Assembly: GCF_035046485.1 (NCBI RefSeq)
Contig: NC_085137.1
Coordinates: 442,622,334-442,686,333, forward strand
DNA from: Aedes albopictus
Taxonomy: Eukaryota; Arthropoda; Insecta; Diptera; Culicidae
Direction: 5' to 3'
Length of the DNA: 64,000 nt
Shown here in pieces: positions 20,799-61,562 of this stretch. The translations under genes and the position numbers were made by a program. Below the pieces are notes generated by a model. That model searched no databases, was not told where the DNA came from, and worked only from the letters and a program-made list of their open reading frames with translations. Position 1 is the stretch's first letter; the number at the start of each line of letters is the position of its first letter.

Positions 20799-21955
20799 CT
20801 ATTTCCTGTGTTGATTGACGTGTGAACAAATGTTTTCAATAATCGAGCTTTTTGTGCAACGCAGGACTTGCGTTAAGGTCTGAGGTCACGCTCCTCGTGA
20901 GAGAGAGAGGATTCTTCGATTTTGGGAACTTCAATCGTAATATCTCGAATATGAAGCCAAATATTACAATTTCCACAAGACAATCTCTTCAAAATATATT
21001 TTAGAATATTCAGTGAAAATTTCATGATCTTAGACTTAGCCAAATTTGAATTTATTAGAAAAGAGTAAACTGTTGTCAAAAGCTGTTTTCGCCACCTTGA
21101 CACTTGTTTCTAATATTTGAAGTAGTTAGAGGCATTTGATCGCAAAATCGTCCCGACAATCTCTGAGGATATTTCTTATGATCATTTTAGTCCAAAAAAA
21201 AGTACGCTAACTATGGTACATTTTTAGTAGTCTGCATTTCATTTCAGTAAAAATCTAAAAATTGTGATGAAACTTCTCTCATATGAGAGAAATTATTTTC
21301 TCATTTTCTCCGCTCGTAACAGACAAACAAGAGCACATGGAATTGTGGTGGGGTTCAGGGTTACCAGGATTGGTCATGCGCATAACACGCAAAGTTGCAT
21401 TTCTAACAATAATATTTACATATTACATATAGTTATTTATTTCGCTTTAGAATATTTATCATCTTTCTAAAGTAACGACCAAAATGGAACTGAGCCTGCT
21501 TTAGTTTTCTATGAGAACTTCCTCGGTTGTTGGTTGAGAGCTTACTTTGCCAATCGATCATTTTTCGTTTGTGAGGAATTCACTCTATAACCAAGGAAGT
21601 CCAGAATATATTATCCAATGAGAAAAGATCCTGGCTCGACCGAAAAAAGTGTTATTCCAATATCGTACTTCGTTTAGCCAAAGATGGCAACCCTATGTTG
21701 CTCACAATGATGATCCTCTGTATGTTGCTCTGCGTTTGCTCCCACGGTGCGTTTAGTGGAACACGCTTTGACTGCAAGAATATATACGAAATGCACAACT
21801 TACAAATACTAAATAATATATCAAGTTCGTTAGAAGTCAATTCACTTATGATTTTCCTGTTCAGATACACTGGGCAATATCTCTAAATGTATGCCCCATG
21901 GTATGTGGCCACTTCCAAATGTTAACCGAATTTTGTCATACGTCAATCAATTTGG
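20799..21955. other. Intergenic AT-rich sequence, nothing recognised
   Basis: Only short chance frames occur. There is no tandem array until the satellite begins at about 21960. Confidence 0.4.
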
Positions 21956-21959
21956 ATAA

Positions 21960-24900
21960 TATATGAGTTCACAGAGCTTGCTCGAGGATTCTTGATAAAT
22001 TTGAGAGTATTCCTCGATTTATTGTGATTATTTAGAAATTCTAATGAATAGCGGTGTTTACTGAAATTATTCGAGGATTCTTGAAGATTTTTAGAGTATT
22101 CCTCGATTCTTTGTGGTTATTTAGGAATTCTAATAAATATTTGAGATTGTTGAGCTTGCTCGCTGATTCTTGAAGAATTTTGGAGTATTTCTAGAGTGTT
22201 CATGATAGCTTAGGAATTATAATGAATATCTGAGTTTTCTGAGATTATTCGAGTATTTTTGAAGAATTTTAGAAATCTCCTCAATTAAACGATATCTGAG
22301 GATTTCAGATAAATTTTAGAAGAATTTGGGAACATTTCTCGATTTTTTGTAATTATTTAGGAATTCAAATGAATATCTGAGTTTGCTGAGCTTATTCGAG
22401 GATTCTTGAAGATTTTTAGAGTATCCTCGATTTTACGATAACTGAGGAATTCAGATGAATATTTGTGCTCACTGAGCTTATTCGAGGATTCTTGAAGAAT
22501 TTGGGAATATTTCTAGATTTTTTATGATAACTGGGAAATTCAGATGAATATTTGAAAGCACTGAGCTTGCTCGAGGATTCTTTAGAGTTTTAGAGTTTTC
22601 CTCGATATTTTGTGATTATTTAGGAGTACTAATGAATATCTGAGTTTGCTGAGCTTACTCAAGGATTCTTGAAGAATGTTAGAGTTTTCCTCGATTTTAC
22701 GATAACTGAGAAATTCAGATGAATATTTGAGTTCACTGAGCTTGCTCAAGGATTCTTGAAGAGTTTTAGAGTATTCCACGATATTTTGTGATAATTTGAG
22801 AATTCTAATGAATATTTGAGTTTGCTGAGTGAGTTTTAGAGTATTCCTCGATTTTTTGTGATTATTTAGGAATTCTAATGACTATTTGAGTTCACTGAGC
22901 TTGCTCGAGGAAGAATTTGAGAGTATTCCTCGATTTTTTGTGATTATTTAGGAATAAGAATGAATATATTAGTTTGCTGAGATTATTCGAGAATTTTTGA
23001 AGAATTTTAGAGTTCTCCTCAATTTTACGACAAATATTTGAGTTCACTGTGCTTGCTCGAGAATTCTTGAAGAATTTGAGAAGATCCTTCGATTTTTTGT
23101 AATTATATAGGAATTCCAATGAATATCTGAGTTTGCTGAGCTTATTCGAGGATTCTTGAAGAGTTTTAGAGTATTCCTCGATATTTTGTGATTATTTAGG
23201 AATTCTAATGAATATTTAAGTTTTCTGAGCTTATTCGAGGATTCTTGAAGAGTTTTAGAGTTTTCCTCGATATTTTGTGATTATTTAGGAATTCTAATGA
23301 ACATTTGAGTTTTCTGAGCTTATTCGAGGATTCTTGAAGTGTTTTAGAGTATTCCTCGATATTTTGTGATTATTTAGGAATTCTAATGAATATTTGAGTT
23401 TGATGAGCTTATTCTAGGATTCTTGAAGAGTTTTAGAGTATTCCTCGATATTTTGTGATTAATTAGGAATTCTAATGAATATTTGAGTCTGATGAGCTTA
23501 TTCGAGGATTCTTGAAGAGTTTTAGAGTTTTCCTAGATATTTTGTGATTATTTAGGAATTCTAATGAATATTTGAGTTTGCTGAGCTTATTCGAGGATTC
23601 TTGAAGAGTTTTAGGGTATTCCTCGATATTTTGTGATTATTTAGGAATTCTAATGAACATTTGAGTTTTCTGAGCTTATTCGAGGATTCTTGAAGTGTTT
23701 TAGAGTATTCCTCGATATTTTGTGATTATTTAGGAATTCTAATGAATATTTGAGTTTGATGAGCTTATTCTAGGATTCTTGAAGAGTTTTAGAGTATTCC
23801 TCGATATTTTGTGATTAATTAGGAATTCTAATGAATATTTGAGTCTGATGAGCTTATTCGAGGATTCTTGAAGAGTTTTAGAGTTTTCCTAGATATTTTG
23901 TGATTATTTAGGAATTCTAATGAATATTTGAGTTTGATGAACTTATTCGAGGATTCTTGAAGAGTTTTGGGGTATTCCTCGATATTTTGTGATTATTTAG
24001 GAATTCTAATGAATATTTGAGTTTGCTGAGCTTATTCGAGGATTCTTGAAGAGTTTTAGGGTATTCCTCGATATTTTGTGATTATTTAGGAATTCTAATG
24101 AACATTTGAGTTTTCTGAGCTTATTCGAGGATTCTTGAAGTGTTTTAGAGTATTCCTCGATATTTTGTGATTATTTAGGAATTCTAATGAATATTTGAGT
24201 TTGATGAGCTTATTCTAGGATTCTTGAAGAGTTTTAGAGTATTCCTCGATATTTTGTGATTAATTAGGAATTCTAATGAATATTTGAGTCTGATGAGCTT
24301 ATTCGAGGATTCTTGAAGAGTTTTAGAGTTTTCCTAGATATTTTGTGATTATTTAGGAATTCTAATGAATATTTGAGTCTGATGAGCTTATTCGAGGATT
24401 CTTGAAGAGTTTTAGAGTTTTCCTAGATATTTTGTGATTATTTAGGAATTCTAATGAATATTTGAGTTTGATGAACTTATTCGAGGATTCTTGAAGAGTT
24501 TTAGAGTTTTCCTCGATATTTTGTGATTATTTAGGAATTCTAATGAACATTTGAGTTTTCTGAGCTTATTCGAGGATTCTTGAAGTGTTTTAGAGTATTC
24601 CTCGATATTTTGTGATTATTTAGGAATTCTAATGAATATTTGAGTTTGATGAGCTTATTCTAGGATTCTTGAAGAGTTTTAGAGTATTCCTCGATATTTT
24701 GTGATTAATTAGGAATTCTAATGAATATTTGAGTCTGATGAGCTTATTCGAGGATTCTTGAAGAGTTTTAGAGTTTTCCTAGATATTTTGTGATTATTTA
24801 GGAATTCTAATGAATATTTGAGTTTGATGAACTTATTCGAGGATTCTTGAAGAGTTTTAGAGTTTTCCTCGATATTTTGTGATTATTTAGGAATTCTAAT

Positions 24901-27539
24901 GAACATTTGAGTTTTCTGAGCTTATTCGAGGATTCTTGAAGTGTTTTAGAGTATTCCTCGATATTTTGTGATTATTTAGGAATTCTAATGAATATTTGAG
25001 TTTGATGAGCTTATTCTAGGATTCTTGAAGAGTTTTAGAGTATTCCTCGAAATTTTGTGATTATTTTGGAATTATAATGATTATTTGAGTGTGATGAGCT
25101 TATTCGAGGATTCTTGAAGAGTTTTAGAGTATTCCTCGATATTTTGTGATTAATTAGGAATTCTAATGAATATTTGAGTTTGATGAGCTTATTCGAGGAT
25201 TCTTGAAGAGTTTTAGAGTTTTCCTTGATATTTTGTGATTATTTAGGAATTCTAACGAATATTTGAGTTTTCTGAGCTTATTCGAGGATTCTTGAAGAGT
25301 TTTAGAGTTTTCCTCGATATTTTGTGATTATTTAGGAATTCTAATGAATATTTGAGTTTGATGAGCTTATTCGAGGATTCTTGAAAAGTTTTAGAGCATT
25401 CCTCGATATTTTGTGATTATTTAGGAATTCTAATGAATATTTGAGTTTGATGAGCTTATTCGAGGATTCTTGAAGAGTTTTAGAGTATTCCTCGATATTT
25501 TGTGATTATTTAGGAATTCTAATGAATATTTGAGTTTTCTGAGCTTATTCGAGGATTCTTGAAGAGTTTTAGAGTTTTCCTCGATATTTTGTGATTATTT
25601 AGGAATTCTAATGAATATTTGAGTTTGATGAGCTTTCTCGAGGATTCTTGAAGAGTTTTAGAGTATTCCTCGATATTATGTGATTATTTAGGAATTCTAA
25701 TGAATATTTGAGTTTGATGAGCTTATTCGAGGATTCTTGAAAAGTTTTAGAGCATTCCTCGATATTTTGTGATTATTTAGGAATTCTAATGAATATTTGA
25801 GTTTGATGAGCTTATTCGAGGATTCTTGAAGAGTTTTAGAGTATTCCTCAATATTTTGTGATTATTTAGAAATACTTATAAATATTTGAGTTCACTGAGC
25901 TTTCTCGAGGATTCTTGAAGAGTTTTAGAGCATTCCTCGATATTTTGTGATTATTTAGAAATACTTATGAATATTTGAGTTCACTGAACTTTCTCGAGGA
26001 TTCTTGAAGAGTTTTAGAGTTTTCCTCGATATTTTGTGATTATTTAGGAGTACTAATGAATATCTGAGTTTGCTGAGCTTACTCAAGGATTCTTGAAGAA
26101 TGTTAGAGTTTTCCTCGATTTTACGATAACTGAGAAATTCAGATGAATATTTGAGTTCACTGAGCTTGCTCAAGGATTCTTGAAGAGTTTTAGAGTATTC
26201 CGCGATATTTTGTGATAATTTGAGAATTCTAATGAATATTTGAGTTTGCTGAGCGAGTTTTAGAGTATTCCTCGATTTTTTGTGATTATTTAGGAATTCT
26301 AATGACTATTTGAGTTCACTGAGCTTGCTCGAGGAAGAATTTGAGAGTATACCTCGATTAGAATGAATGAATATATTAGTTATTATATAGTAGAATATAT
26401 TAGTTTGCTGAGATTATTCGAGAATTTTTGAAGAATTTTAGAGTTCTCCTCAATTTTACGACAAATATTTGAGTTCACTGAGCTTGCTCGAGAATTCTTG
26501 AAGAATTTGAGAATATCCTTCGATTTTTTGTAATTATATAGGAATTCCAATGAATATCTGAGTTTGCTGAGCTTATTCGAGGATTCTTGAAGAGTTTTAG
26601 AGTTTTCCTCGATATTTTGTGATTATTTAGGAATTCTAATGAATATTTGAGTTTGATGAGCTTATTCGAGGATTCTTGAAAAGTTTTAGAGCATTCCTCG
26701 ATATTTTGTGATTATTTAGGAATTCTAATGAATATTTGAGTTTGATGAGCTTATTCGAGGATTCTTGAAGAGTTTTAGAGTATTCCTCGATATTTTGTGA
26801 TTATTTAGGAATTGTAATGAATATTTGAGTTTTCTGAGCTTATTCGAGGATTCTTGAAGAGTTTTAGAGTATTCCTCGATATTTTGTGATTATTTAGGAA
26901 TTGTAATGAATATTTGAGTTTTCTGAGCTTATTCGAGGATTCTTGAAGAGTTTTAGAGTTTTCCTCGATATTTTGTGATTATTTAGGAATTCTAATGAAT
27001 ATTTGAGTTTGATGAGCTTATTCTAGGATTCTTGAAGAGTTTTAGAGTATTTCTCGAAATTTTGTGATTATTTAGGAATTATAATGATTATTTGAGTGTG
27101 ATGAGCTTATTCGAGGATTCTTGAAGAGTTTTAGAGTATTCCTCGATATTTTGTGATTAATTAGGAATTCTAATGAATATTTGAGTCTGATGAGCTTATT
27201 CGAGGATTCTTGAAGAGTTTTAGAGTATTCCTCGATTTTTTGTGATTATTTAGGAATTCTAATGACTATTTGAGTTCACTGAGCTTGCTCGAGGAAGAAT
27301 TTGAGAGTATTCCTCGATTTTTTGTGATTATTTAGGAATAAGAATGAATATATTAGTTTGCTGAGATTATTCGAGAATTTTTGAAGAATTTTAGAGTTCT
27401 CCTCAATTTTACGACAAATATTTGAGTTTACTGAGCTTGCTCGAGAATTCTTGAAGAATTTGAGAATATCCTTCGATTTTTTGTAATTATATAGGAATTC
27501 CAATGAATATCTGAGTTTGCTGAGCTTATTCGAGGATTC
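21960..27539 (+). repeat. 89-bp satellite array, forward arm, with higher-order repeats
   Basis: The unit is 89 bp (successive GAGGATTC landmarks at 25373, 25462 and 25551). Its core reads TTATTCGAGGATTCTTGAAG followed by AGTTTTAGAGTATTCCTCGA. The edges (21960-23100 and 25870-26550) are more diverged than the centre. In the centre the variant with GAAGTGTTTT recurs at 23336, 23692, 24137, 24582 and 24938, that is every 356 or 445 bases (4 or 5 units), so multi-unit blocks have been amplified. A diverged block near 22600-23150 recurs at 26030-26560 and again, in part, at 27230-27530. Confidence 0.92.
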
Positions 27540-29404: not shown

Positions 29405-31610
29405 ATAATAAAAAAATCACGGTAAAATAATGTTTCGGAAAAGTGAATGGTTCAAACGTAAGAAAAACAGTATAATATATTGTTACATAAAAATCCAATG
29501 TAAATGTATAGTATAGCGAACCATTTCATCACAATACACTTTATTGTAGCTGGTACACTGTATGGTGCAGAAATGGTTTTCACCATACACCCTATGGTTA
29601 GTTTTTATCCGGGTGGTGCAAGCTCATTGAACTCAAATATTCCCCAGAATTCCCAGATCATCATAAAAATCAACAAATATTCACAAATACTTCAACAAAC
29701 TCTCGAGCAAGCTCATTCAACTCAAATATTCACCAGAATTCCCAGATCATCATAAAAATCAAAAAATGTTCACAAATACTTCAACAAACTCTGGAGCAAG
29801 CTGATTGAACTCAAATACTCACCAGAATTCTCAGGTCATCATGGAAATCAAGAAATATTCACAAATACTTCAAGAACCCTCGAGCAAGCTCATTCAACTC
29901 AAATATTCACCAGAATTCCCAGGTCATCATAAAAATTAACAAATATTCACAAATACTTCAACAAACTCTGGAGCAAGCTCATTGAACTCAAATATTCACC
30001 AGAATTCCCAGGTCATCATAAAAATCAACAAAAATCACAAATACTTCAACAAACTCTCGAAAAAAAATCATTCAACTCAACTATTCACCAAAATTCGCAG
30101 GTCATAATAAAAATCAACAAATATTCACAAATACTTCAAGAACCCTCGAGCAAGCTCATTGAACTCAAATATTCACCCGAATTCCCAGGTCATCAAGGAA
30201 ATCAAGAAATATTCACAAATACTTCAACAAACTCTGGTGCAAGCTCATTGAACTCAAATATTCACCAGAACTCCCAGATCATCATAAAAATCAACAAATG
30301 TTCACAAATACTTCAACAAACTCTGGAGCAAGCTGATTGAACTCAAATACTCACCAGAATTTTCAGGTCATCATAGAAATCAAGAAATATTCACAAATAC
30401 TCCAAGAACCCTCGAGCAAGCTCATTGAACTCAAGTATTCCCCAGAATTCCCAGATCATCATAAAAATCAACAAATATTCACAAATACTTCAACAAACTC
30501 TCGAGCAAGCTCATTCAACTCAAATATTCACTCGAATTCCCAGGTCATCATGGAAATCAAGAAATATTCACAAATACTTCAAGAACCCTCGAGCAAGCTC
30601 ATTGAACTCAAATATTTCCCAGAATTCCCAGGTTATCATAAAAATCAACAAATATTCACAAATACTTCAACAAACTCTCGAGCAAGCTCATTGAACTCGA
30701 ATATTCACCAGAATTCTCAGGTCATCATGGAAATCAAGAAATATTCACTAATACTTCAAGAACCCTCGAGCAAGCTCATTGAACTCAAATATTCACCAGA
30801 ATTCACAGGTCATCATAAAAATCAACAAATATTCACAAATACTTCAACAAACTCTCGAGCAAGCTCATTGAACTCGAATATTCACCAGAATTCTCAGGTC
30901 ATCATGGAAATCAAGAAATATTCACTAATACTTCAAGAACCCTCGAGCAAGCTCATTGAACTCAAATATTCCCCAGAATTCCCAGATCATCATAAAAATC
31001 AACAAATATTCACAAATACTTCAACAAACTCTCGAGCAAGCTCATTCAACTCAAATATTCCCCAGAATTCCCAGATCATCATAAAAATCAACAAATATTC
31101 ACAAATACTTCAACAAACTCTCGAGCAAGCTCATTCAACTCAAAAATTAACCCGAATGCCCAGGTCATAATAAAAATCAACAAATATTCACAAATACTTC
31201 AACAAACTCTCGAGCAAGCTCATTCAACTCAAATATTCCCCAGAATTCCCAGGTCATCATGGAAATTAAGAAATATTCACTAATACTTCAAGAACCGTCG
31301 AGCAAGCTCATTGTACTCAAATATTCACCAGAATTCCCAGATCATCATAAAAATTAACAAATATTCACAAATACTTCAAGAACTCTCGAGCAAGCTCATT
31401 CAACTCAAATATTCACCTGAATTCCCAGGTCATCATAAAAATCAACAAAAAATCACAAATACTTCAACAAACTCTCGAAAAAAAAATCATTCAACTCAAC
31501 TATTCACCAAAATTCCCAGGTCATCATAAAAATCAACAAGAATACACTAATATTTCAAGAATTTTCATGCAACGTCATTGAACTCACATATGCACCAGAA
31601 TTCCACGTTT

Positions 31611-33920: not shown

Positions 33921-34165
33921 TGTTGGCGGATGGCAACACAGATCGTATGAGTAAATATAATGCAAATTTGATGACGTTTTGTTTTAGTGTGTACCTTTCT
34001 GACTTGTTTATATTTTTGAATTCGCTCTTGATCATTCTGAAAAAATGTAACCGCGTGCCGTTGAGCAAGATTATTTTTTCCAAATTTTTTTTTCAATAAA
34101 TACCCGTGTATTCCGTAATAAACTGCGTGTTTTCCGATCGATCCGAAACCTGCCTCTGCCCAACA
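33921..34165 (+). repeat. Copia 5' LTR
   Basis: It starts TGTTGGCGGATGG and ends CTGCCCAACA (245 bp). It contains AATAAA near 34095, a candidate polyadenylation signal. The preceding CAATT is the target duplication. Confidence 0.93.
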
Positions 34166-34179
34166 GGTTATGGGCCCGG
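34166..34179 (+). promoter_or_regulatory. Copia primer binding site (tRNA-iMet internal)
   Basis: GGTTATGGGCCC directly follows the LTR. It complements the anticodon stem-loop region of initiator tRNA-Met and not its 3' end, the half-tRNA priming known for Drosophila copia. Confidence 0.8.
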
Positions 34180-34266
34180 CGGAGCAGTCGGATAAAGTGC
34201 GCGGGGTCGGTTTTTCCAAGTCGGTAAATTAGTGCGTCGCATTGTCGTGTCGGTTCGATTTTAGCT

Positions 34267-35493
34267 ATGGCGACCGGTGAAAGGATGGTGTCATTCCCAA
34301 GGCTGAATGGGACAAATTACGACAATTGGAGCTTTCGGATGAAGCTGCTCCTTTTGAAGGAAGGTAATTGGACCGTGATCAGCGAGGAGAAGCCTGAAGA
34401 AGAAGAAAACGCGGTGGATTGGAACAACAGGAACGACCAAGCGATGGCAACAATTGGTTTGGCAGTGGAGGACAGTCAACTGATCCACATCCGGAAGGCC
34501 AAATCAGCAGCAGAAGCATGGAAAAACTTGGAGACTTTCCACGTAAAGCGGACGCTCACTACGAAGGTGTCTCTAATGAGGAAAATCTGCCGTCTCAGAC
34601 TTGAACGAGGCGGAGATATGGAAACGCATATCAGTCGTCTAACGGAGCTCTTCGAAAAGCTAAACAATTTGCAGGAGGACAAGATACTGGATGATCATTG
34701 GCTCGTCGCGATATTATTTAGCAGCCTACCTGATGAATACGAGACGCTCGTCACTGCACTGGAAGCACGTCCAGATGAAGATTTAACCTTGAACCTGGCC
34801 AAAGGAAAGTTGCTGGACGAGTGGCAGAAACGGAAAAATCGTTTTGAAGATGACGACGACGCGGAGACGGCTTTGCATGCCAGATCAAGTGCTAGTAGTG
34901 TGGTGAAGTGTTTCTTCTGCAAAAAGTCCGGCCATAAGAAGTTTGAGTGTGAAAAGTATAAGGACTGGAAGAAGAATAAGGACACAAAGCAAGAAGAAGA
35001 AAAGGTCAACAGTGTAGTAAATGCGCCGGATGAAGATTGCCACTGGGCATTTGTCGCAGCTAGTTCTTCATCAACTGAAGGGTTGTGGCTTCTAGACTCG
35101 GGCGCGACGTGCCACATAGTGAATCACCGTGACTTTTTCGATGATCTTGATGACACTGTTCGAGAGGTGGTATACGTGGCTAATGGTGCGAAGGTGGTGG
35201 CCAAAGGTCGTGGGCGCGGTGTGATGAAAGTTGTGGATGACAAGAACCGATGCCGAGTTATCACTGTAGAAGAAGCTTTATTTGTCCCGGAAATGAACAC
35301 TAATCTGCTGTCTGTGAAAATGCTTGTGCGCAAAGGTTATGTGGTGACGTTTGATAGCAAGGGAGCTACAATCGCTCGCGATGGGGTTGTCGGAGCTGTT
35401 GGAAATAAAAACACAGGCGAGGCTTTCTGTTTCCGAACCCAGGCACTGACTGATATCGCTACCAGCTCAGTGCCTCTCCTTTATTCAATCTAG
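34267..35493 (+). CDS. Copia gag-protease, 5' part of gag-pol interrupted by TRIM
   Basis: It begins MATGERMVSFPRLNGTNYDN, a typical copia gag start. The zinc knuckle is CFFCKKSGHKKFEC (Cys215, Cys218, His223, Cys228). The aspartic protease motif LLDSGATCHI has DSGA at 277-280. Residues up to about 376 are copia. The rest of the 408-residue frame, from VGNKNTGEAF on, is read through the inserted LTR and ends at a stop inside it. The element could therefore make gag and protease but not a full pol protein in its present state. The start is the first ATG after the primer site and gives the expected gag N-terminus. Confidence 0.92.
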   Translation: MATGERMVSFPRLNGTNYDNWSFRMKLLLLKEGNWTVISEEKPEEEENAVDWNNRNDQAMATIGLAVEDSQLIHIRKAKSAAEAWKNLETFHVKRTLTTKVSLMRKICRLRLERGGDMETHISRLTELFEKLNNLQEDKILDDHWLVAILFSSLPDEYETLVTALEARPDEDLTLNLAKGKLLDEWQKRKNRFEDDDDAETALHARSSASSVVKCFFCKKSGHKKFECEKYKDWKKNKDTKQEEEKVNSVVNAPDEDCHWAFVAASSSSTEGLWLLDSGATCHIVNHRDFFDDLDDTVREVVYVANGAKVVAKGRGRGVMKVVDDKNRCRVITVEEALFVPEMNTNLLSVKMLVRKGYVVTFDSKGATIARDGVVGAVGNKNTGEAFCFRTQALTDIATSSVPLLYSI

Positions 35494-35595
35494 GTATAAC
35501 ATATTTACAATTTATTTCCATTTACCTGCCAGTTGATACCTAGCTCTCCACTGAGCTGTGTGATGCACCTCCAAGGATATACCTACCATTCAACA
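35397..35595 (-). repeat. TRIM LTR (3' LTR in element orientation)
   Basis: On the plus strand it runs TGTTGGAAATAAA to CATTCAACA. It carries the stop codon that ends the copia gag-protease frame. Confidence 0.92.
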
Positions 35596-36069
35596 CTCCT
35601 CCTCATCACACACTCTCAGATCCGACGCGTCCCGAGCTTCACCTGGCCACGTACTCCTCCAGCCTACCGAGCTCCTCCTTAGCAACCGAGCTACCAGACT
35701 CCTCCTGGCTCCAAGCAGACTCTGCTACCAGGCCCTGGCTCCAAGCTACGTCTGCTACTAAGAGGCTACCAAGCTCCTCCTGGCTCGAAGCGTCTTCCGC
35801 CTCAAGTACCTTCTGCCATCCAGCTCCAGCGTCCATCGATCAGCCAGCACCCTCTGCCTCTTGGTTCCAGCGCAGGTCCCACACGGCTATCAATCCTCAC
35901 CGAGTGTTGGTCCCCTCACCGCATCTTGGTGTCTCAACGAATATTGGCACCAGGCCTCATCGCATCTTGACACCTCATCGGGTATTGGCCTCCTCATCGT
36001 ATCTTGGATACCGCATCTCGGTTTCCTCGCTTCCCGAACCACCACCAGGGCGTCCCTGGGCCCATAACC

Positions 36070-36268
36070 TGTTGGAAATAAAAACACAGGCGAGGCTTTC
36101 TGTTTCCGAACCCAGGCACTGACTGATATCGCTACCAGCTCAGTGCCTCTCCTTTATTCAATCTAGGTATAACATATTTACAATTTATTTCCATTTACCT
36201 GCCAGTTGATACCTAGCTCTCCACTGAGCTGTGTGATGCACCTCCAAGGATATACCTACCATTCAACA
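36070..36268 (-). repeat. TRIM LTR (5' LTR in element orientation)
   Basis: I found no difference between this copy and the one at 35397-35595. It is adjacent to the primer binding site at 36057-36069. Confidence 0.92.
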
Positions 36269-39070
36269 GGAGCTTATGCGGACCTCAAGCACAATTTGTT
36301 TGTCATGCGAGTCTCCGGAGAATCGGCATCCCTTGTGCAAAAGGGCAGTGACTGTGTTCATGGTTGGCACCGTAGGTTGGGGCACAGAAACTGCGATGCG
36401 ATTGTAAAGTTGTGTGAATTGGCCGATGGTTTTGATGTCGCGGAGTGCAAATGTAACGATGTTTGTGAAGTGTGCGTGAGGGGTAAAATGCACCGAAGCC
36501 CTTTCCCGAAGGAATCAGAGAGCAAGTCGTCAGCTGTATTGGATCTGGTGCATACAGATATTTGCGGTCCGATGCGCACTGCGACTTTGGGTGGCCGAAA
36601 GTATTTTCTCACCTTCACGGACGACTACAGCAGATACACTGTGGTCTACATTGTGCGACGAAAATCGGAAACGTTGGAGAAGATCAAAGAATTTGTGGAG
36701 ATGGCAAAAACCCAATTCGGTCGGAAGCCGAAAATTCTTCGGTCTGATCGAGGCGGTGAATACATCGGAAACCAGGTGAGAAACTATCTTAAATCAAATG
36801 GTATCGTTGGTCAGCTTACAGTGCCCTACTCACCCCAGCAAAATGGGGTAGCCGAAAGGAAAAACCGGTACATTGTTGAAATGGCACGATGTATGCTTAT
36901 TGATGCGAAGTTAGATGATCGTTTTTGGGGAGAGGCGGTGGTTACGGCAAATCACATGCAAAACCGTCTACCGTCTCGTTCGATTCAGGGCACTCCATAT
37001 GAACGTTGGTTTGGGCGTAAACCGGATCTCAGCGATATTAGACCATTTGGCATTGATGTCTATTGCCATGTGCCGAAACAAAAACGAGGGAAATTGGACG
37101 AAAAAGCTGTCAAGCTGAAGTTTATGGGGTACAGCGAAGACACAAAAGGGTATCGTTTAGTGGATGTCCATACCGGTAAAGTGACAATAAGTAGGGATGT
37201 TCGATTCCTAAACACTTTTGATCCTATTAAGAAGTCTGAGGAAAATGAAGTGGTTGTGCCATTGCATGTTTCGCATCCTCGTTCACATCAAGTTGTACCA
37301 GAAGACATTGCAGTAATAACTGACGACGAGCCTGACGACGATCCTGACGACTTCTGGGTTGATACTGAGTGCTTCTTGGATAACAATCCTAATGACGACG
37401 AACCTTTTCAGGACCCGCTGAACCAGCCGGTGGAAGACCCGTTACAACTGCCAGTTCGGCGATCAGAGCGAGCAACTAGAGGTGTTCTTCCGCAGAGGTA
37501 CGCGTGTGTAGCAGAGGAGGAGACTGAGCCACGAAACTACGACGAGTCGCAAAGTAGTATTCACAAGGGTCAATGGCGGAATGCCATGCTTGAAGAGCTG
37601 GAGTCAATTAAATCTAATGATGTCTGGGATATTGTTGATCTGCCACCAGGGAGGCGAGCACTAGGAAGCAAATGGGTATATAAGCTGAAGCGGGATTCGG
37701 ACGGCAACATTAGACGTTTCAAGGCTCGGCTCGTTGCCCAAGGTTTCAACCAGCGGTATGGAAGCGAGTACGACGAAATCTTTGCACCGGTGGTACGATT
37801 GACAACATTTCGAGCCCTTCTGTCGGTCTCAGCGAAAAGAGGAATGATAGTACAACAATATGATGTCAAGTCAGCTTTCCTTCACGGCAACCTTGAGGAG
37901 GAGATCTTCATCCGTCAGCCACCGGGATTTGTTGTAAAAGGTGCGGAAGGCAAGGTTTGCCGGCTGAAGAAGAGTTTGTATGGATTGAAGCAAGCGGCGC
38001 GGTCCTGGAATAATCGGCTTCATGAAGTTCTAGTGGGCGAAGGATTTGAGAGATGTGATTCGGATCCCTGTCTTTATCGTAAGCAAGTCGGGGATAAATT
38101 GTGTTTCGTACTTGTGTACGTAGACGATTTGATCGTTTCAAGTGACGACAAGGCCATCGTGGATTCTCTGGAGCAGAGTTTGAAGAAAAACTTCGCTATC
38201 AGCTGCCTAGGACACGTTCGGCAGTACCTTGGTGTTGAAGTAGGACAGGATGAAGGAGGAGACTACTATATCAGCCAGCAGCGATATATCGCCGATGTCG
38301 TCAAATCTGCCGGTTTGGAGGACGCTAAAGTGTCAGCGATTCCGCTTGATACAGGATATGAAAAGCAAGATCAAGATCCAAACGTTCTACCTGACAATCA
38401 CGAATATCAACGTCTGATAGGGAAGTTATTGTTTATTGCTGTGAACTCACGCCCGGATATCGCTGCTTCCGTGTCTATCCTTAGCAGGAAAACCAGTAAA
38501 CCTACTCAACGTGACTGGAACGAGGTTAAGAGAGTCATACGCTATTTAAAGGGAACCGCAAATCTGCAACTTCGCCTAAGTTACACTACCGACGGATCAG
38601 GACTGGTCGGTTATGCAGATGCCGACTGGGCGGAGTGTCGAGATGGCCGCAAATCGAATAGTGGCTTCGTATTCCAGTATAACGGTGGCACGATTTCGTG
38701 GGCGTGTCGCAAACAAGCTTGTGTGTCACTTTCGACAGCAGAAGCCGAATTTGTGGCTTTAGCGGAGGCCTCACAGGAAGCCCTATGGCTTAAACGATTG
38801 CTGACTGATTTAGGTGAGACTGTGACCACAGTTCGGATGAACGACGATAATCAAAGCTGTCTACGAATGCTCGACTGTGACAAGTTTAGCAACCGCACAA
38901 AACATATCGATACCAAGTATTACTTCACTAAGGACCTGAAGCAAACTGGAGTAATGGAGTTCCAATACTGCCCGAGTGAACTAATGAGAGCTGATCTTCT
39001 AACAAAACCACTCGCAAGGATCCGGCTAGGTGTGCTGAGGAAGCTGTGTGGCCTTGATGTCATGATCTGA
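36206..39070 (+). CDS. Copia pol: integrase, reverse transcriptase, RNase H (3' part of gag-pol)
   Basis: The frame opens in the TRIM LTR and reads copia sequence from 36269. In order it shows the pre-integrase zinc region (HGWHRRLGHRN, then CEVCVRGK), the integrase core (HTDICGP, RSDRGGEY, QQNGVAERKNR), a C-terminal integrase extension rich in Asp, RT (ALGSKWVYKLK, YDVKSAFLHGNL, LVYVDDLIVSS) and RNase H (YADADWAECRDGRKSNSG, LSTAEAEF, RTKHIDTKYY). It ends ADLLTKPLARIRLG and a short tail, as usual in copia. No stop or frameshift lies within it. The apparent start at 36206 belongs to the inserted LTR and is not a natural start. Confidence 0.94.
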   Translation: MIPSSPLSCVMHLQGYTYHSTGAYADLKHNLFVMRVSGESASLVQKGSDCVHGWHRRLGHRNCDAIVKLCELADGFDVAECKCNDVCEVCVRGKMHRSPFPKESESKSSAVLDLVHTDICGPMRTATLGGRKYFLTFTDDYSRYTVVYIVRRKSETLEKIKEFVEMAKTQFGRKPKILRSDRGGEYIGNQVRNYLKSNGIVGQLTVPYSPQQNGVAERKNRYIVEMARCMLIDAKLDDRFWGEAVVTANHMQNRLPSRSIQGTPYERWFGRKPDLSDIRPFGIDVYCHVPKQKRGKLDEKAVKLKFMGYSEDTKGYRLVDVHTGKVTISRDVRFLNTFDPIKKSEENEVVVPLHVSHPRSHQVVPEDIAVITDDEPDDDPDDFWVDTECFLDNNPNDDEPFQDPLNQPVEDPLQLPVRRSERATRGVLPQRYACVAEEETEPRNYDESQSSIHKGQWRNAMLEELESIKSNDVWDIVDLPPGRRALGSKWVYKLKRDSDGNIRRFKARLVAQGFNQRYGSEYDEIFAPVVRLTTFRALLSVSAKRGMIVQQYDVKSAFLHGNLEEEIFIRQPPGFVVKGAEGKVCRLKKSLYGLKQAARSWNNRLHEVLVGEGFERCDSDPCLYRKQVGDKLCFVLVYVDDLIVSSDDKAIVDSLEQSLKKNFAISCLGHVRQYLGVEVGQDEGGDYYISQQRYIADVVKSAGLEDAKVSAIPLDTGYEKQDQDPNVLPDNHEYQRLIGKLLFIAVNSRPDIAASVSILSRKTSKPTQRDWNEVKRVIRYLKGTANLQLRLSYTTDGSGLVGYADADWAECRDGRKSNSGFVFQYNGGTISWACRKQACVSLSTAEAEFVALAEASQEALWLKRLLTDLGETVTTVRMNDDNQSCLRMLDCDKFSNRTKHIDTKYYFTKDLKQTGVMEFQYCPSELMRADLLTKPLARIRLGVLRKLCGLDVMI

Positions 39071-39088
39071 AGTTACGATCCACGTGTT

Positions 39089-39097
39089 GAGGAGGAG
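39089..39097 (+). promoter_or_regulatory. Copia polypurine tract
   Basis: GAGGAGGAG lies directly before the 3' LTR and should prime plus-strand DNA synthesis. The TRIM carries the same tract. Confidence 0.75.
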
Positions 39098-39341
39098 TGT
39101 TGGCGGATGGCAACACAGATCGTATGAGTAAATATAATGCAAATTTGATGACGTTTTGTTTTAGTGTGTACCTTTCTGACTTGTTTATATTTTTGAATTC
39201 GCTCTTGATCATTCTGAAAAATGTAACCGCGTGCCGTTGAGCAAGATTATTTTTTCCAAATCTTTTTTTCAATAAATACCCGTGTATTCCGTAATAAACT
39301 GCGTGTTTTCCGATCGATCCGAAACCTGCCTCTGCCCAACA
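39098..39341 (+). repeat. Copia 3' LTR
   Basis: 244 bp, from TGTTGGCGG to CCCAACA, followed by the second CAATT target duplication. Confidence 0.93.
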
Positions 39342-44032: not shown

Positions 44033-44502
44033 TAGAGATGGTCGGGTTTCAGATTTTACAGACCCGAACCCGAACAATTTTTAATTTCAAAACCCGGACC
44101 CGACCCTAGCCCGAGCATTTTTTGTTCCGTCAAACCTTGACCCGACCCGAACCCGAAAAATTTTCGTCGGTCAAACCCGAACCCGACCCGAACCCGAGAA
44201 AATATTTGTCAATAAACCCGATCAAAACCCGAGTTAAAAAATGATTGTTAAATGTATCGGATATAACAAATAAACCATTTTTCTGAATACTAATTTATCT
44301 ACACTGGTACCAAACCCGACTTGAACCCGACGTTTTTCAAACCCGACCCGACCCGTACCCGAAAATTTTGAAATTATTCAAACCCGGACCCGACCCAAAC
44401 CCGAGTTTTTTAAAATATCTATGCCCGAACCCGACCCGTACCCGTCGGGTTCGGGTTCGAGTCGGATTTCGGGTTTGAAAACCCGAAACCTGACCATCTC
44501 TA
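44033..44502. mobile_element. hAT-like MITE, 470 bp, 8-bp TSD
   Basis: Ends are TAGAGATGGTCGGGTTTC and, inverted, TAGAGATGGTCAGGTTTC. CTAACAAT lies at 44025-44032 and 44503-44510. The interior is built from many copies of CCCGACCCGAACCCG-like units on both strands, giving strong strand asymmetry. It is inserted in the RT region of the LINE. Confidence 0.88.
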
Positions 44503-47329: not shown

Positions 47330-48240
47330 TCATCGAATACAGTCTTTAGAGTTCAAATTCTCCATGTGCTTCAATTTGAAACCGTTAACCATCTGCTTCA
47401 ATTGCTTCAAACTCGGCACATTCAAATTTCCAAGCCTTCTATGCCATATAGCTCCTATATAGCTGCTATATAGCTCCAGCTCATTTGACAAAAACGTATG
47501 CTCTGCTTGACGATTGAGCCGATATAATCCTCCGTCAGCCATGCCGGATGGAGAAACTTCTCCATTTTCATCCAACACCGTACATCCGCTTGTTGTGAAC
47601 GTCATCGTGAAGCCTTTGCTGCATATCTTGCTGACTGACAACAATTTTGCCGCTAAATCCGGGACTTCTAGGAGATCTTGAATATCCATAAGACCGTCAA
47701 CGCATTTTAGCTTGACGACACCTTTGACTTTGGCCATCATTCTCGCTTTATTCGCCGTACCAACTTGACATGAAATCTCCTGTTTGCCACGCAAGTTCCA
47801 TCCAGTTCTTGTCATGTGTGTGGTGGCACCAGAGTCGAAGAGTGACCTTCCTTAGGCATCACTGCGCACCAGAAGCCTTCCCGTATTAACGTCATCTTCA
47901 TGGTGAACGCCCATCACACGTTCTCGGCCTTTCAACTTTTCGATCGAAATCACATTCACAATGCGTGTTTGTTGGGTTGCTTTATTCAACTAATCGCATG
48001 CTCCTCTTACCGTACATCAATTTTAAAGCGAGTTTGAAGTGTTTTGTGATCATAAGAGGTGGAAAAAATGATTCCAAAAACTGATCAACAAACCAAAATA
48101 AACGTTAAACAAAAAATTGTTGATGTTTTCGCATTTGACAGTGGGCGCTATTTACTAGCACCCAGGACATCCTGTCTACCACGATTCCAATGCATTGATA
48201 TAGGCCGTGTCAGGGGCCTGGCTGGGCCCATAACCTATTG
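47330..48240 (-). pseudogene. Decayed copia fragment (protease to pre-integrase)
   Basis: On the minus strand, about 47850-47820 reads FDSGATTHM, the copia protease active site. It is followed by VPDLAAKLLSVSKIC, then IWHRRLGNLNVPSLKQL, the start of the pre-integrase region. The frame ends at 47330 and the rest of pol is missing. At 48241-48228 the minus strand shows GGTTATGGGCCCAG, a copia-type primer site, so the 5' LTR boundary should lie near 48242. The gag between is unreadable. It is much older than the copia at 33921. Confidence 0.75.
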
Positions 48241-50807: not shown

Positions 50808-53800
50808 TCATTTTTTTTTATATTTTGCTATCTGCTGTCTACTCCTCTTTGTCAACGTTGATACTTTTGTTCCGTATAATATTGCCGGTGCTATCACAGT
50901 ATTATACATTAACTTGCCAATGTTCCACGAAGGTTTGAATTGTTTACAAAAGTCAATTACTACTCTGGATGCTTTTACTGCGTTTACACATCTTTGCTTA
51001 ACAGTGGCTGGCCTATTCAAGCTTTCCGTTAAGGTAATTCCCAGATATTTTAGTGATTTACATGTTTTGTAGTTCTTATTATTTAACTGAATTGAGTTTG
51101 GAATGTCTCCCATTTTATTTGGCGCTCTTATTATTACATGACTCTTCTCTTGATTGATTTCTAAGCCTACTGTCGGTAAACATTCTTCTAACGCTTTCAC
51201 TATTTTCTCTAGTTCCTCGCGACTTCTTGCTATAATTAGAACATCATCTGCAAAAACTAATATTAAGGGAAGTTCCATTATGTCCATTTCCATCAGTTTA
51301 AGACCGGGAACTTTGTCCACTACTAAAACTAACACTTTCTGCATGACTAAATTGAATAAAAAGGGTGACAAAGGGCACCCTTGCTTAATTCCCTTCCCTC
51401 TGTAAATTTCTTCTGACCACTGATTTTGCCATTTAACCCTTGTTCTATCTTCATTCAAACACAATAACACTCTGTTAATTATGTGTGTGGGAACTTTTAA
51501 GTCTATTAATATATCTTTCAACTTTTCTATTTTAACATTATCGAACGCTTTCTTTATGTCTAGAGAGGCAATATATAATTGCTCTCCTGCATTCCAGTAC
51601 TCCTCCATAATTCTCCTTGTGATGAAAATGTAGTCATCTGTAGATCTCCCTTCCGTAAATGCTGCCTGATGAAGCCCAGCATCTCCCGAAAAAATTCTTA
51701 ATCTATTTTTAACCCACTTTGCATAAGGTTTGTAAATAACATTGCATAGACTGATTCTTCTAAAATCTTCCACTTTCTTTGGACAGCTGACCTTGGAAAT
51801 TGGAATTTGTGTTGAACATGAAAGGTCTCTGGGCATTACATTTTCTATCCACATTCTTTGCCAAATTGCCATCAAGTCATTGAAAGTATCCTCATCAGCA
51901 TATTTTATCATTTCCATACGTACCCCATCCGGGCCTGCTGATTTCCCATTGCAAGAATTAAAAATTATCGTAAGCATTTTCTCCTTTGTAGGCGGCTCAG
52001 TCAATGGACACGTATCGTTCTCATCTAAGAATGTTATGCTAGGCCCTTCACTTTCCTTTAAAACTTGATTCCATAACCTCGTAGGAATATAGGCATTCTT
52101 CTTTTTCTTTTTCTTCATAAATTTCTTCAAAAAGGTATAAGATTTCCTAATTCTTGCTCCTACTTCAAAATCATTCAAATTCCTATAAAAATCCTTAATA
52201 GTTTTTTCTGTATGCTCTCTCTCTGCTTTCTGGAATTCCTCTTTCCTATTTTGAACTTTCCATTTGTAAGGTAACATATCTGGATGTTTCTTCCATAATT
52301 TCAGCGCTTTGTTCAGTCTTCCCAATGCTGCTTTTCTTTTTGGAGTTAAAGGTGCTATAGCTGTTTTCAATGCTTCATCTGCAGAACATTTCATTTTCTC
52401 CGATACTTCTTTATATTGCTGATGTATATCTTTCCTTATATCTCTAAACTCCGTGTTGTCGTGTTGTTTTAGGGCATCCTTATATTTCTTCTTAATTACA
52501 TCATACCTCAGTGCTGCACAATCTAACTTCCTCTTACACTTTTTCCTTTTTCTTTGGATGGAACTATCATCAAAACTCAAACCAGCAATCAGCAATTTGT
52601 GATCCGTTTTCACGCCTGTCCAAAACCCTCGTACAAATCTTACCCTAAAAAAACTATCGTTTGGTATTAGTACATGGTCTATTTGACTTTCCCTCTGCCC
52701 ACTTCTCCATGTGACACACGTGTTTTCTCCGATTTTTGTAGAAATGTTGATCAGTTTATGTATTTTCAAAAACATTTTAAATTCTTCTCCATTATCATTA
52801 CTCTTATCAAAACCTAGCTTTTCTCGTAAAATTTCATTATCGTCGCTGTCTGTATCTTCCCTTCCGATTTGAGCATTAAAATCCCCAATAATTAAAATTC
52901 TCCTCCTAATATGATCTTTTCCAGTCAATGACCCCACCTCTGTTAAAAAGTTGTACACTGTTTTGTTAGGTCCATGGACATTTACTAAAATAAATTTCCA
53001 TATCTTGTCAATCATGATTTCCACTGACATAATTGATGGACTCTTCATTCTTATCTCTCCAACCGATACTCCCGAGTTCTTTTTAATCATTAGTGCTAAA
53101 CCCCTTGACTTATTGGGTCTATTCATAGGCGACGTCCATTTGTAGTTTTTAGTTTCGATCAACTCACCTAAGGCATTGACTTCTTGTAACGCTGCTACCT
53201 CTATATTATGTAACATCATTATCTCATCTATCTCATTTCTTTTCTCTTCTCTGATACATCCCCTCACGTTCAATGAAGCCACCCTGATGAACCGTTGATT
53301 TGGTTCTTGACTTGCATTGCTTTCTATTTCATGGTTCGATCTGCTATGTCTGTTCAATTCTACTTCTTCCTGTTTTCCTTTCTTATTACTCACCCTTGCT
53401 TCGTTGTTCTCCACCACCTGAATACGATTTTCAATTTCGTTATACACCTGTTCTTGTGCAGCCTTACCTTGTGCATATGACTCATTCTCATCTTCTAGAA
53501 CTTCAATTACACTTTCAAAATGATTTTTCCCTCCTTCTGCCACAGTCCTGGTATAAAAAATCCTCAGTGTCTGATCCTCGCTTCTTCCGCTTTCACCAAT
53601 GATAACATCTGGTTCATCTTCTTGATGGACTATTATGTTTTTCTCAAATAATTCACCAACTGCCACCATTACTTCATGTCTCAGCCATGCTCCCATTTTT
53701 CTGACACTTGACGAAATAAACTTCTCAAATCCACCCTCTTCCAAACTTTCTATTAGGAAAGGTTCGTATCTGTCCCTATGATTGATCATATGCTCTGCAA

Positions 53801-54457
53801 CTCTGTTTCTGAAATCCTGAATTTCTTTGCCTGTTACAATATGGTTATCTTCTTGCCCCTTTAATTGATCAATAAGTGCTCTTATCAAACAATTCCCGTC
53901 CCCCCTAATCTTCCGCACTCTAATTTTCGTTGTCTTGTCGTGTAACAGTGCTACATAACTTTCCGAATTGTTCTCTTGTTTTCTCAACAAACTGTACCGA
54001 CTTTTTGCTGTCTGGTAGGACTTATTCACACTATTTGTTGATGTATTCCTCTTTACTGTGTCACAGGTTTTAAAGGCAATTGCCGAGTCAATTATTTTAC
54101 AGTCGATGTTAAATTCGACCCCGTTAACTGTATTAATCATTTTATCAGGAATTATTGAAAACTTATAATCACCACCTTCAAAAATATTAATCACTGTACA
54201 GAATATTTCCGCCGTTGCACAGATAATCCGAAGGTCTTTGAAATTATTTTTCTGGAATACTCTGATTATTTCTTGTTTAGCAATACTCCTCTTAAACAAC
54301 TTACTATTAACTGAGGGTGAAATAAGAGCTTCAAAAACTTTTTTGGAAAAAATGAATGTCGAAAATCGATTGTCAGCCTTTTGTATTTGATCAATAAGTG
54401 TTTCACTAATATTTTCAACCCCTCTCCAGAACCCACCACCTTGTTCGTATTTTCCAT
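50808..54457 (-). CDS. OTU-APE-RT polyprotein of LINE
   Basis: The frame is open from 54470 to the stop at 50808. No ATG lies near its start in this frame, while an ATG at 54457 one base out of frame suggests a small indel. Counting from codon 54299: an N-terminal region; an OTU-type cysteine protease domain with RGDGNCLIRAL (Cys137) and NHFESV (His260); a Glu-rich linker; an APE-type endonuclease (SLNVRG at 342-347, LQEV with Glu373, IGDFNAQIG with Asp473, Asn475, TDHK with His567); and RT (SAGPDGV, SLDIKKAFDNV, GIKQGCPLSPFLF, VFADD at 1015-1019). OTU domains cleave ubiquitin chains; a role in this element is unknown. The stop follows an A9 run, and the RT C-terminus continues in the next frame (IVKSIWQNC). 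Confidence 0.9.
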
Positions 54458-54470
54458 GTTTGTAAGAAAA

Positions 54471-56995: not shown

Positions 56996-57083
56996 TAATA
57001 AACTTGCACCGAAACCGTTCGTTTATTCGCAGGTATACTGTTCTGTTTTGACACCCGATTGGCACCGGTGCAAGAAAATGCTA

Positions 57084-58092
57084 CACGGGGAAACGAAATA
57101 ACTCAAAATTAAGTATTTTTCACTCAGCTTGACAGCTAAGTAAAACCAGTCAAATTTGAGTTTTTTTGGAAGAACCCAAATTTGAGTTGTTTCACAAAGA
57201 CTCCGTTTTGAGTAAAAAGTATGTATTATGAAAATAGAGGATTTTGGATTAAAAGTATCCAAAAATTAGTTTTCACGAATAGAAATTTTTACGAAAATTT
57301 GATTATTTCTTGTAATTTACAAATATACGCATGGTTTTCAAACGAGGTTCCTAGTTCATTTTTATTCACACATTTTGAAATTAATATAACACATTATTTA
57401 GAAACTTTATCGCCTGGTGCAAACGCCATCCGGATCCGGGTTACGGTAGCGTTCGCGTTTGGTGATCATCTTTCGTCGTCGGAACTCGCGCCGGAAGCGA
57501 ACGGGGAATCAAACGAATGTTCTGTTGGTGATGATAATGATGAGAAAAATCAGTATTGCGTTGAATGCATTAATGCAGTATGCAACTTACCTGTGATTAA
57601 CAAGTGAAAGGATTAGGTAACCATTTCAATTTTATTTTGAAGATGTTCGAAGTCCAGAAATGTACCAGGAAATCCAGGAAATGGAGCGAACTTTTCGTTT
57701 TGGCTAATTTTTGGTAACGAACGCTTTCTGAAAATGATAAAAAAGATTGACAATACATAAAAACATAATAATTATGAAGGAACTTACCGAAATTTGCAGA
57801 AACAACGACCACCGAATATCCAACCTGAAATCAACATGGCGCAGAATAAAATTTTCATCCAAAATCGTGTTTGCCAACAACACCTTATTTTGGATACTTT
57901 ACGAAGAGAAAAACAAAACAAAATCATCACATGTCTGAATTTACCCAAAGCCAAGTATTTGCGCCATACTCCAATATTAATTTAAAAGTATCCAACAACC
58001 ACAACAAAAATGTACCCAATTCAATAGTGTTGGTGGAGTACTTAATTTTAAGTTTTTTTTATCTCAGTTTTGAGTTATTTCGTTTCCCCGTG
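57084..58092. mobile_element. TA-type MITE, 1,009 bp, CACGGGG termini, in palindrome left arm
   Basis: Ends are CACGGGGAAACGAAATAACT and its exact inverse (about 25 bases). The empty site is visible at about 60455-60475 in the right arm and shows that TA is duplicated. The interior includes a GC-rich piece (57418-57520) that stands out from the AT-rich remainder. Confidence 0.9.
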
Positions 58093-60517
58093 TACACCCA
58101 GTTTGAGCGCGGTGTAGCAGATACAAAGCTAGTTTTACCAATACATGCATATCGCTGAACTTGTATCGTGGTTTTGTTTTGGTAGGAATGATGATTTTCT
58201 TTTCGGCATTAGGTTAACAGTTTTCTTGGATATTCATTTAAATAACAGCAAATCTGTGCGTTTAAAAATTATTGAAACTTGATCGATGATTATCACGTCT
58301 TTCAATCAACTTCTGAGGAATCTTCAAAATTTATCGGTAACATAAAATTTCAAAGAGTTGATTCAACGTATATTTTTCCCATTACTATTTTTTTTTTGAT
58401 TATGGCAATTATGTGGGTTACTTTTAATGATTTTAATCATTAGAATTTTCTGTCGCATGGTGATCTATTATTTATGAAAAAAATTGACGTAATAAAGTTT
58501 TGATAAGCCCAGAATAAAATATTATGAATTCGATTGGAAATCAAAAAACTTTTTTTGAGAAAAATATTTTTGCTAATTTTGAGTTGTTTACAACATACAT
58601 CGGAAGTGACGTATATGATAGTGCATCATTGAACACACACAGCGCACCCCACCCGGCACTGAAAAAAAGTGTCGCTTGTCGAAAAGTGTCGCTAGTCAAA
58701 ACGTCGCTATTCGGTTTGGTGCTGGCGCCATAATAAAAATCTATTCATTCAAATTGGGCTGAAATATTACTGAAGTAACATTTTGTAGGTACAAACAGTT
58801 TCAAAAACCGCAAATTCTATTTTTTTTTTCTAACAACAAATATTGAATTTTTGAGTTATATTGAAAGTCAAACAAATGTCATTAAAGGATGGTTAAAGCG
58901 TTTTTAATATGAGTTGCGTTTCAATAACGTTATCTTCTAAAAAGCATTTAGTTATTTTTCTTTTTACGTTGTAGCTAAACGTTTTAAATTGAACTGCCTT
59001 TAACATTTTTTGTGTTAAATTTGTGCACGTAGATCGCTTACAATTGTATGTTAGCATCCATTTTTATTGGGTAACCGAAATTGTTAAATTCTAAAAAGTT
59101 GCTTTTAATTGAAAAATTATGATATTACGAGAATTTGAAGAAGATAAATAAAGTAGGAGTGTTAACACATTGGATAACTATTTTCAAGTAACATTTATTA
59201 TTACAAGTTTATCATGTACAAGTGGATTACTGAAAACTTTTAAAATTGTTAAATTGGATATAGAAAGTAAAAAATAAAAATAAATTAAAATAATTTTGTT
59301 CATCACGGAAATCATGAAAACATTGATTATGTTTATTTTTGAAATCCTTTATTATTTTCATTGACGCTCTCACGCGATCTTATTATGTCGAATTCGTTTA
59401 TTCCCGACAGTGCCCTGCACCGGTGTAGCAATTGACACCGGAAAAACGAACGGTTTCGGTGCAATTTGTTGACAGCTTATGATGGTATTAGTAAGAGCGG
59501 TGAGAGCGTCAATGAAAACAATAAAAGATATCAAAAATAAACATAATCAATGTTTTCATGATTTCCGTGATGAACAAAATTATTTTTATTTATTTTTATT
59601 TTTTACTTTCTATATCCAATTTAACAATTTTAAAAGTTTTCAGTAATCCACTTGTACATAATAAACTTGTAATAATAAATGTTACTTGAAAATTGTTATC
59701 CAATGTTTTAACACTCCTACATTATTTATCTTCTTCAAATTCTCGCAATATCATAATTTTTCAATTAAAAGCAACTTTTAAGAATTTAACAATTTCCGTT
59801 TCCCAATAAAAAAGGATGCTAACATGCAATTGTAAACGATCTACGTGCACAAATTTAACACAAAAAATGTTAAAGGCAGTTCAATAGAAAACGTTTAGCT
59901 ACAACGTAAAAAAAGGTTTTTAGAACATAACGTTATTGAAACGCAGCTCATATTAAAAACGCTTTAACCATCCTTCAGTGACATTTGTTTGACTTTCAAT
60001 GTAATTCAAAAATTCAATATTTGCTGTAAGAAAAAAAAAATAGAATTTACGGTTTGTGAAACTGTTTGTACCTACAAAATGTTACTTCAGTAATATTTCA
60101 GTCCAGACAGAAATTTCTAACGATTAAAATCATTCAAAGTAATCAACATATTTGCGATAGTAAAAAAAAAATGGTAATGGGAAAATATACGTTGAATCTA
60201 CTTTTTAAAATTTCATTTTACCGATAAATTTTGAAGATTCCTCAGAAGTTGATTGAAAGACGTGATAATCATCGATCAAGTTAAAATAATTTTTAAACGC
60301 ACAGATTTGCTGTTAAATGAATATCCAAGAAAACTGTTTACCTAACGCCGAAGAGAAAATCATCATTCCTACCAAAACAAAACCACGATACAAGTTCAGC
60401 GATATGCATGTATTGGTAAAACTAGCTTTGTACCTGCTACACCGCGCTCAAACTGGGTGTAGCATTTTCTTGCACCGGTGCCAATCGGGTGTCAAAACAG
60501 AACAGTACCTGCGAATA

Positions 60518-61370: not shown

Positions 61371-61444
61371 TAAACGAACGGTTTCGGTGCAAGTTTGCTA
61401 CACCCGGTGGCAAAGCGGTGCAGGGGGTGCAAATAAACGAATTC

Positions 61445-61562
61445 GACATAAACTAATACCATCATAAGCTGTCAACAAATTGCACCGAAACCGTTCGTTT
61501 TTCCGGTGTCAAATGCTACACCGGTGCAGTGCACCGTCGGGAATAAACGAATTCGACATAAG
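61445..61562. repeat. Extra inverted copy of the palindrome loop sequence
   Basis: Read inverted, this matches the loop at about 59384-59493 (TTATGTCGAATTCGTTTATT, CACCGGTGTAGCA, ACGAACGGTTTCGGTGCA, TTATGATGGTATTAGT) with few differences. AATAAACGAATTCGACATAA therefore occurs twice in direct orientation (61431 and 61541). Confidence 0.8.

Follow-up and report, generated by a model that had tools for sequence, protein, structure and literature searches.

A complete LTR retrotransposon of only 872 bp, with no recognisable gene, lies in reverse orientation inside a copia element in the 64,000-nucleotide stretch of Aedes albopictus DNA analysed here (hereafter the window, with positions numbered from its first letter). 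By structure this miniature element is a TRIM, an assignment made from a single copy. We conclude that copia proteins likely carried out both its reverse transcription and its insertion; this conclusion concerns the mode of copying and applies with or without a longer parent that has the same LTRs. The element is an addition to the known kind of TRIM and not a new type of system.

TRIMs are defined as elements under 1 kb with direct repeats of 100-250 bp, a primer site, a polypurine tract and a non-coding interior (PMC6934838). The miniature element (35397..36268, minus strand) resembles TRIM/SMART elements in all of these respects and also in having a target-site duplication. Its 872 bp fall below the limit of about 1000 bp, and its terminal direct repeats of 199 bp, inside the range of about 100-250 bp, are the 5' LTR at 36070..36268 and the 3' LTR at 35397..35595, both on the minus strand, with TGTTG...CAACA ends and no difference at any of the 199 positions. 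The 14-nt primer-binding site GGTTATGGGCCCAG (36056..36069, minus strand) adjoins the 5' LTR and opens the 474-bp interior (35596..36069, minus strand), which is closed by the 9-nt polypurine tract GAGGAGGAG (35596..35604, minus strand) adjoining the 3' LTR. We take the primer site to be of the half-tRNA, initiator tRNA-Met type known from copia. The element is flanked by GGAGC on the left (35392..35396) and on the right (36269..36273). The length, the identical LTRs and the GGAGC duplication given in the initial annotation agree with these coordinates and letters, and its description of a recent miniature LTR element in reverse orientation inside a copia is borne out by the absence of LTR differences and by the nesting.

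The host copia (33921..39341, plus strand) is recognised by its LTRs, a target duplication, a primer site, a polypurine tract and Pfam domains. Its LTRs (33921-34165 and 39098-39341; 245 and 244 bp) are 99.2% alike, with one substitution and one indel between them, and the 5-bp duplication CAATT flanks it on both sides. The 12-nt primer site GGTTATGGGCCC (34166-34177) directly follows the 5' LTR, and the polypurine tract GAGGAGGAG (39089-39097) directly precedes the 3' LTR. Pfam matches cover copia Gag, Pol beta-barrel, pre-integrase, integrase, an SH3-like domain and RVT_2. The insertion point falls after the part matched to Pol beta-barrel and before the part matched to pre-integrase, and the miniature element is antisense to both. 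The three pieces of the host coding sequence are stop-free over 388, 467 and 464 residues, and subtracting 877 bp (the insert plus one duplication) leaves the frames in phase (36275-877-34228 = 1170 = 3 x 390), a result of arithmetic on the coordinates and not of joining the letters. Because the pieces are stop-free, the frames are in phase and the LTRs are nearly identical, the copia that was hit by the miniature element was young and apparently open. The insertion splits the host coding frame and would have inactivated the host copia. With 0 differences over 199 bp in the miniature LTRs and 2 over 245 bp in those of the host, divergence cannot rank the ages of the two elements; the order of insertion, first the host copia and then the miniature element, is given by the nesting. 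An assembly artefact or chimera might be suspected of an element known from a single copy, but we consider this extremely improbable: all the landmarks of a retrotransposition product (LTR ends, target duplication, primer site, polypurine tract) fit to the base, and the host coding frame keeps its phase on either side of the insert.

The miniature element and the host copia have the full set of copia-type signals in common. Both have LTR tips TGTTG...CAACA, the same first 12 nt of the primer site, the same 9-nt polypurine tract and target duplications of 5 bp, and the initial annotation was correct that the minus-strand primer site and polypurine tract are the same as those of the host. Allowing at most one mismatch, the 12-nt primer motif occurs 3 times in the 64-kb window, where 100 shuffles average 0.11 occurrences. 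The element was very probably mobilised by a copia. In the mechanism we propose, a core promoter in the 5' LTR would drive minus-strand transcription by RNA polymerase II, and copia Gag would package the RNA; half of an initiator tRNA-Met would prime minus-strand DNA and the polypurine tract would prime the plus strand, and copia integrase would insert the product, making the 5-bp duplication. A predicted stem-loop in the LTR may act in packaging or 3'-end formation.

Which copia might have served as helper is a separate matter. A third, decayed copia (47333-48235, minus strand) is recognised by a primer site, a Pol_BBD match and a pre-integrase match (below the Pfam cut-off), and its primer site (48224-48235) has 12 nt identical to that of both the miniature element and the host. 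Since the third copia carries an identical site, the 12-nt primer site cannot name the helper. The earlier proposal of mobilisation by a copia stands as to recency and copia-type signals; the host copia is a candidate helper. The interior of the miniature element is unlike the 5' interior of the third copia (249 of 300 shuffles were as good). The local score between the miniature LTR and the LTR of the third copia was reached by 3 of 300 shuffles, and kinship between these LTRs was set aside on the grounds that the aligned stretches are out of register with the LTR end.

Outside the common signals, the miniature element does not resemble the host copia. The best local score between their LTRs was 11, against a shuffle mean of 12.1, with 218 of 300 shuffles as good, and a global LTR alignment was likewise unremarkable (92.5, compared to a mean of 84.0 and standard deviation of 8.2 in 200 shuffles). 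The interior showed no excess likeness to the 5' interior of the host when the primer site was left out (110 of 300 shuffles as good), nor to its 3' interior when the polypurine tract was left out (133 of 300). Because LTR and interior likeness are at chance level, the miniature element did not arise from the host copia by deletion, and this origin was rejected; what the two have in common above chance is confined to tips, primer site and polypurine tract.

As to the claim that the element has no coding capacity, Pfam recognises nothing in the frames scanned; a plus-strand frame of 192 codons stop-to-stop (35544-36122), antisense to the element, stays open and spans the interior. A Pfam search with this frame gave zero matches, and dinucleotide shuffling of the interior gave an open run as long in 43 of 500 cases; on these two results we rejected it as a genuine protein. 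The interior is 40% C on the plus strand, and base composition may lie behind the open frame. Each of the remaining five interior frames contains at least one stop, and of the 13 runs of at least 20 residues from these broken frames, 10 were scanned against Pfam and none matched at E up to 0.1. Over the open frame and these 10 runs, the interior is non-coding in the sense of the TRIM definition. Rfam returned nothing better than E 0.86 for the interior, and ARAGORN found no tRNA in the element. Some repeats are present in the interior, and they are weak: the best internal self-alignment was equalled by 38 of 200 shuffles, and repeats were rejected as a defining feature of the element.

A derivative need not come from the host copia. 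The miniature element could have arisen by internal deletion within a full-length copia family, itself unseen, that has the same 199-bp LTRs, and could have been moved by its own parent. Larger related elements accompany 11 of 289 plant TRIM subfamilies, and the larger relatives found in the six flowering plants were Ty1-copia (PMC4717578); the fully copia-like cis signals of the miniature element also fit such an origin. Among our comparisons, the sole result favouring a deletion origin is the best match of the element to the host protein pieces, 13 columns of a sense-strand frame against the integrase piece at E 0.006. It came from a deliberately permissive short-peptide search that listed 17 hits up to E 10, and is taken as chance. 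Against this origin, Pfam finds no copia coding trace in the open frame or the 10 scanned runs of the interior, and the host copia is excluded as parent by its LTR. We regard descent from such a family as unlikely, while giving it real weight; copying by copia proteins would apply to it as well.

The LTR of the miniature element contains motifs that may direct its expression, a promoter and poly(A) reading that is drawn from short motifs only. TATA at LTR position 15 is followed by TCAGT at 42 (27 nt apart) and AATAAA at 80 and 111, with a GT-rich stretch at 181-189. The same order is seen in the host LTR, with TATA at 89, TCATTC at 112 and AATAAA at 175 and 197. TCAGT recurs at positions 143 and 147 of the miniature LTR, behind the AATAAA at 111, and this second pair (143-151) is an alternative candidate for the transcription start.

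The same LTR is predicted to form a stem-loop with a 15-bp stem, a one-base bulge and a GCGA loop at LTR positions 121-155 (35441..35475 and 36114-36148, minus strand), beginning 4 nt behind AATAAA. The predicted energy of the 36-nt hairpin piece is -22.0 kcal/mol, and none of 1000 mononucleotide shuffles (mean -7.5) was as stable. The stem-loop is also present in the predicted fold of the whole LTR, which was equalled by 4 of 200 of its shuffles; the fold of the interior is unremarkable (11 of 100 shuffles as stable). We scanned both strands of the 64 kb in 36-nt segments at steps of 4 nt and found that, besides the two LTRs, only 44421-44460 reaches -22.0 or comes within 0.5 kcal/mol of it. 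This last site is the most stable short hairpin found in the scan. A natural guess from the predicted fold is that the LTR hairpin may serve packaging, or 3'-end formation and control of the poly(A) site.

Alternatively, the LTR could hold a promoter for RNA polymerase III, as in TRIMs of the Helenus or Cassandra/Ajax type. A GGTTCG motif at LTR position 157 agrees with 7 of 10 specified positions of a B-box consensus, and an A-box-like motif at position 38 agrees with 7 of the 9 positions specified for it. A distance of 119 nt separates these motifs, and the spacing of the boxes in a tRNA gene is much shorter than this. Moreover, Rfam gave 6 matches at E up to 5, none of them to a tRNA or 5S, ARAGORN finds no tRNA, and the duplication is 5 bp here but 4 bp in animal Helenus (PMC10886601). 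This reading is very improbable, and we rejected it for want of tRNA-like or 5S-like sequence and for the 119-nt motif spacing. Identity with Helenus or TRIMp3 is excluded by the same searches of the LTR (Rfam at E up to 5 and ARAGORN).

Comparison with described elements places the miniature element, a likely product of copia proteins, among animal TRIMs. The initial annotation names plants and some insects as the groups in which TRIMs are best known, which is broadly correct but incomplete: TRIMs are also known from cestodes and bivalves, as well as from the honey bee (PMC6934838), and TRIM-like Helenus elements have been reported from fungi and fish (PMC10886601). Among dipterans, the Hessian fly, Mayetiola destructor, has two TRIM lineages (PMC8504770). 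Likeness to the plant, ant, cestode, bivalve and Mayetiola TRIMs is judged here from descriptions and not from sequences. The ant element PbTRIM has a tRNA-Leu primer site and leaves 4-bp duplications (PMC3532108), whereas the miniature element has a half-tRNA site of presumed initiator-Met type and a 5-bp duplication. The bivalve TRIMs are described as having no clear primer site (PMC6934838), unlike the element described here. The primer sites of fungal Helenus elements match Copia and lie in the anticodon loop, with tRNA-iMet among the tRNAs used, and in this they resemble the miniature element with its presumed initiator-Met site; the Helenus families of animals match Gypsy instead, and their duplications are 4 bp long (PMC10886601). 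The Helenus LTR is tRNA-like, while the miniature LTR has no tRNA-like sequence.

Gene-less LTR elements have also been described from another mosquito genus. In Culex, 38 such elements were reported, which contain tandem repeats and lack an apparent master copy, and the cqUNK elements of Culex quinquefasciatus have a clear primer site, a polypurine tract and mostly a duplication (PMC3286476). The cqUNK series thus resembles the miniature element as mosquito LTR elements that lack genes and have a primer site and polypurine tract. The tabulated cqUNK elements are all at least 1629 bp long, and three give Met as the primer tRNA, the kind of site being unstated (PMC3286476). They differ from the miniature element, whose interior is 474 bp with weak repeats only, in being longer and in being described by their tandem repeats. 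Copia itself (Ty1/copia, Drosophila copia type) is alike, by way of the host copia, in primer site, polypurine tract, LTR tips and 5-bp duplication, but has gag-pol; the miniature element is without gag-pol, and its LTR is unrelated to that of the host copia. In a literature search that covered few papers from subscription journals, no copia-dependent mosquito TRIM appeared among the listed titles and abstract openings, and no copia-type primer site was described for an animal TRIM in the parts of the literature examined.

Most TRIMs are without an identified helper, and no coding relative was found for 278 of 289 plant TRIM subfamilies (PMC4717578). Here, a candidate type of helper with the same cis signals lies in the same window. 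The contrast between shared and unshared sequence narrows what the helper could need to LTR tips of about 5 nt, a primer site of 12-14 nt and a purine tract of 9 nt, which opens the minimal signals for trans-mobilisation to assay in insect cells. An animal TRIM of copia type would be a further lineage, because animal Helenus elements are tied to Gypsy and PbTRIM uses tRNA-Leu (PMC10886601 and PMC3532108). It is possible, and we suggest this tentatively, that the element represents an active animal TRIM family, half-tRNA-primed on copia, that retains no more of its helper than tips, primer site and polypurine tract, uses its LTR hairpin as a packaging handle and has silenced an intact copy of its helper's family. 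If this were true, the window would show one genomic parasite caught exploiting another.

Database searches were made in collections described as viral, bacterial, archaeal, phage or plasmid, in which misses are uninformative on copy number in this genome. Exact patterns for the LTR and for the junction of LTR and primer site had no matches each in viral contigs, the LTR pattern had none in microbial genome contigs, and the miniature element had none in phage records. The reverse transcriptase piece of the host copia had no match among PDB sequences and the integrase piece none in viral contigs. With the reverse transcriptase piece as query, one stretch in viral contigs encodes a relative, no locus being returned; in genome contigs, 15 stretches matched a pattern and none encodes a relative. 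Plasmid records gave 4 distant matches to the same piece, all in bacterial plasmids and judged not relevant. In the plasmid records NZ_CP115454.1 and NZ_CP115302.1, a copia-like reverse transcriptase aligns with 96% of the query (37.6% identity), which is possibly contamination.

Other features of the window were also observed. An open frame of 1220 codons (50808-54470, minus strand) contains an OTU-type cysteine protease domain, RVT_1 and an endonuclease match below the cut-off, and by these predicted domains is a putative non-LTR retrotransposon-like ORF with a deubiquitinase-like domain. Two long tandem arrays (21949-27539 and 29614-31604) show register shifts of about 89 bp. The segment 27539-27671 matches the second array at up to 100% over 119 bp, and the two may belong to a single array family that other DNA has interrupted. 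Nested inverted duplications occupy 57023-61561, in which, for example, 58755-59385 and the reversed 59489-60105 are 92.9% identical.
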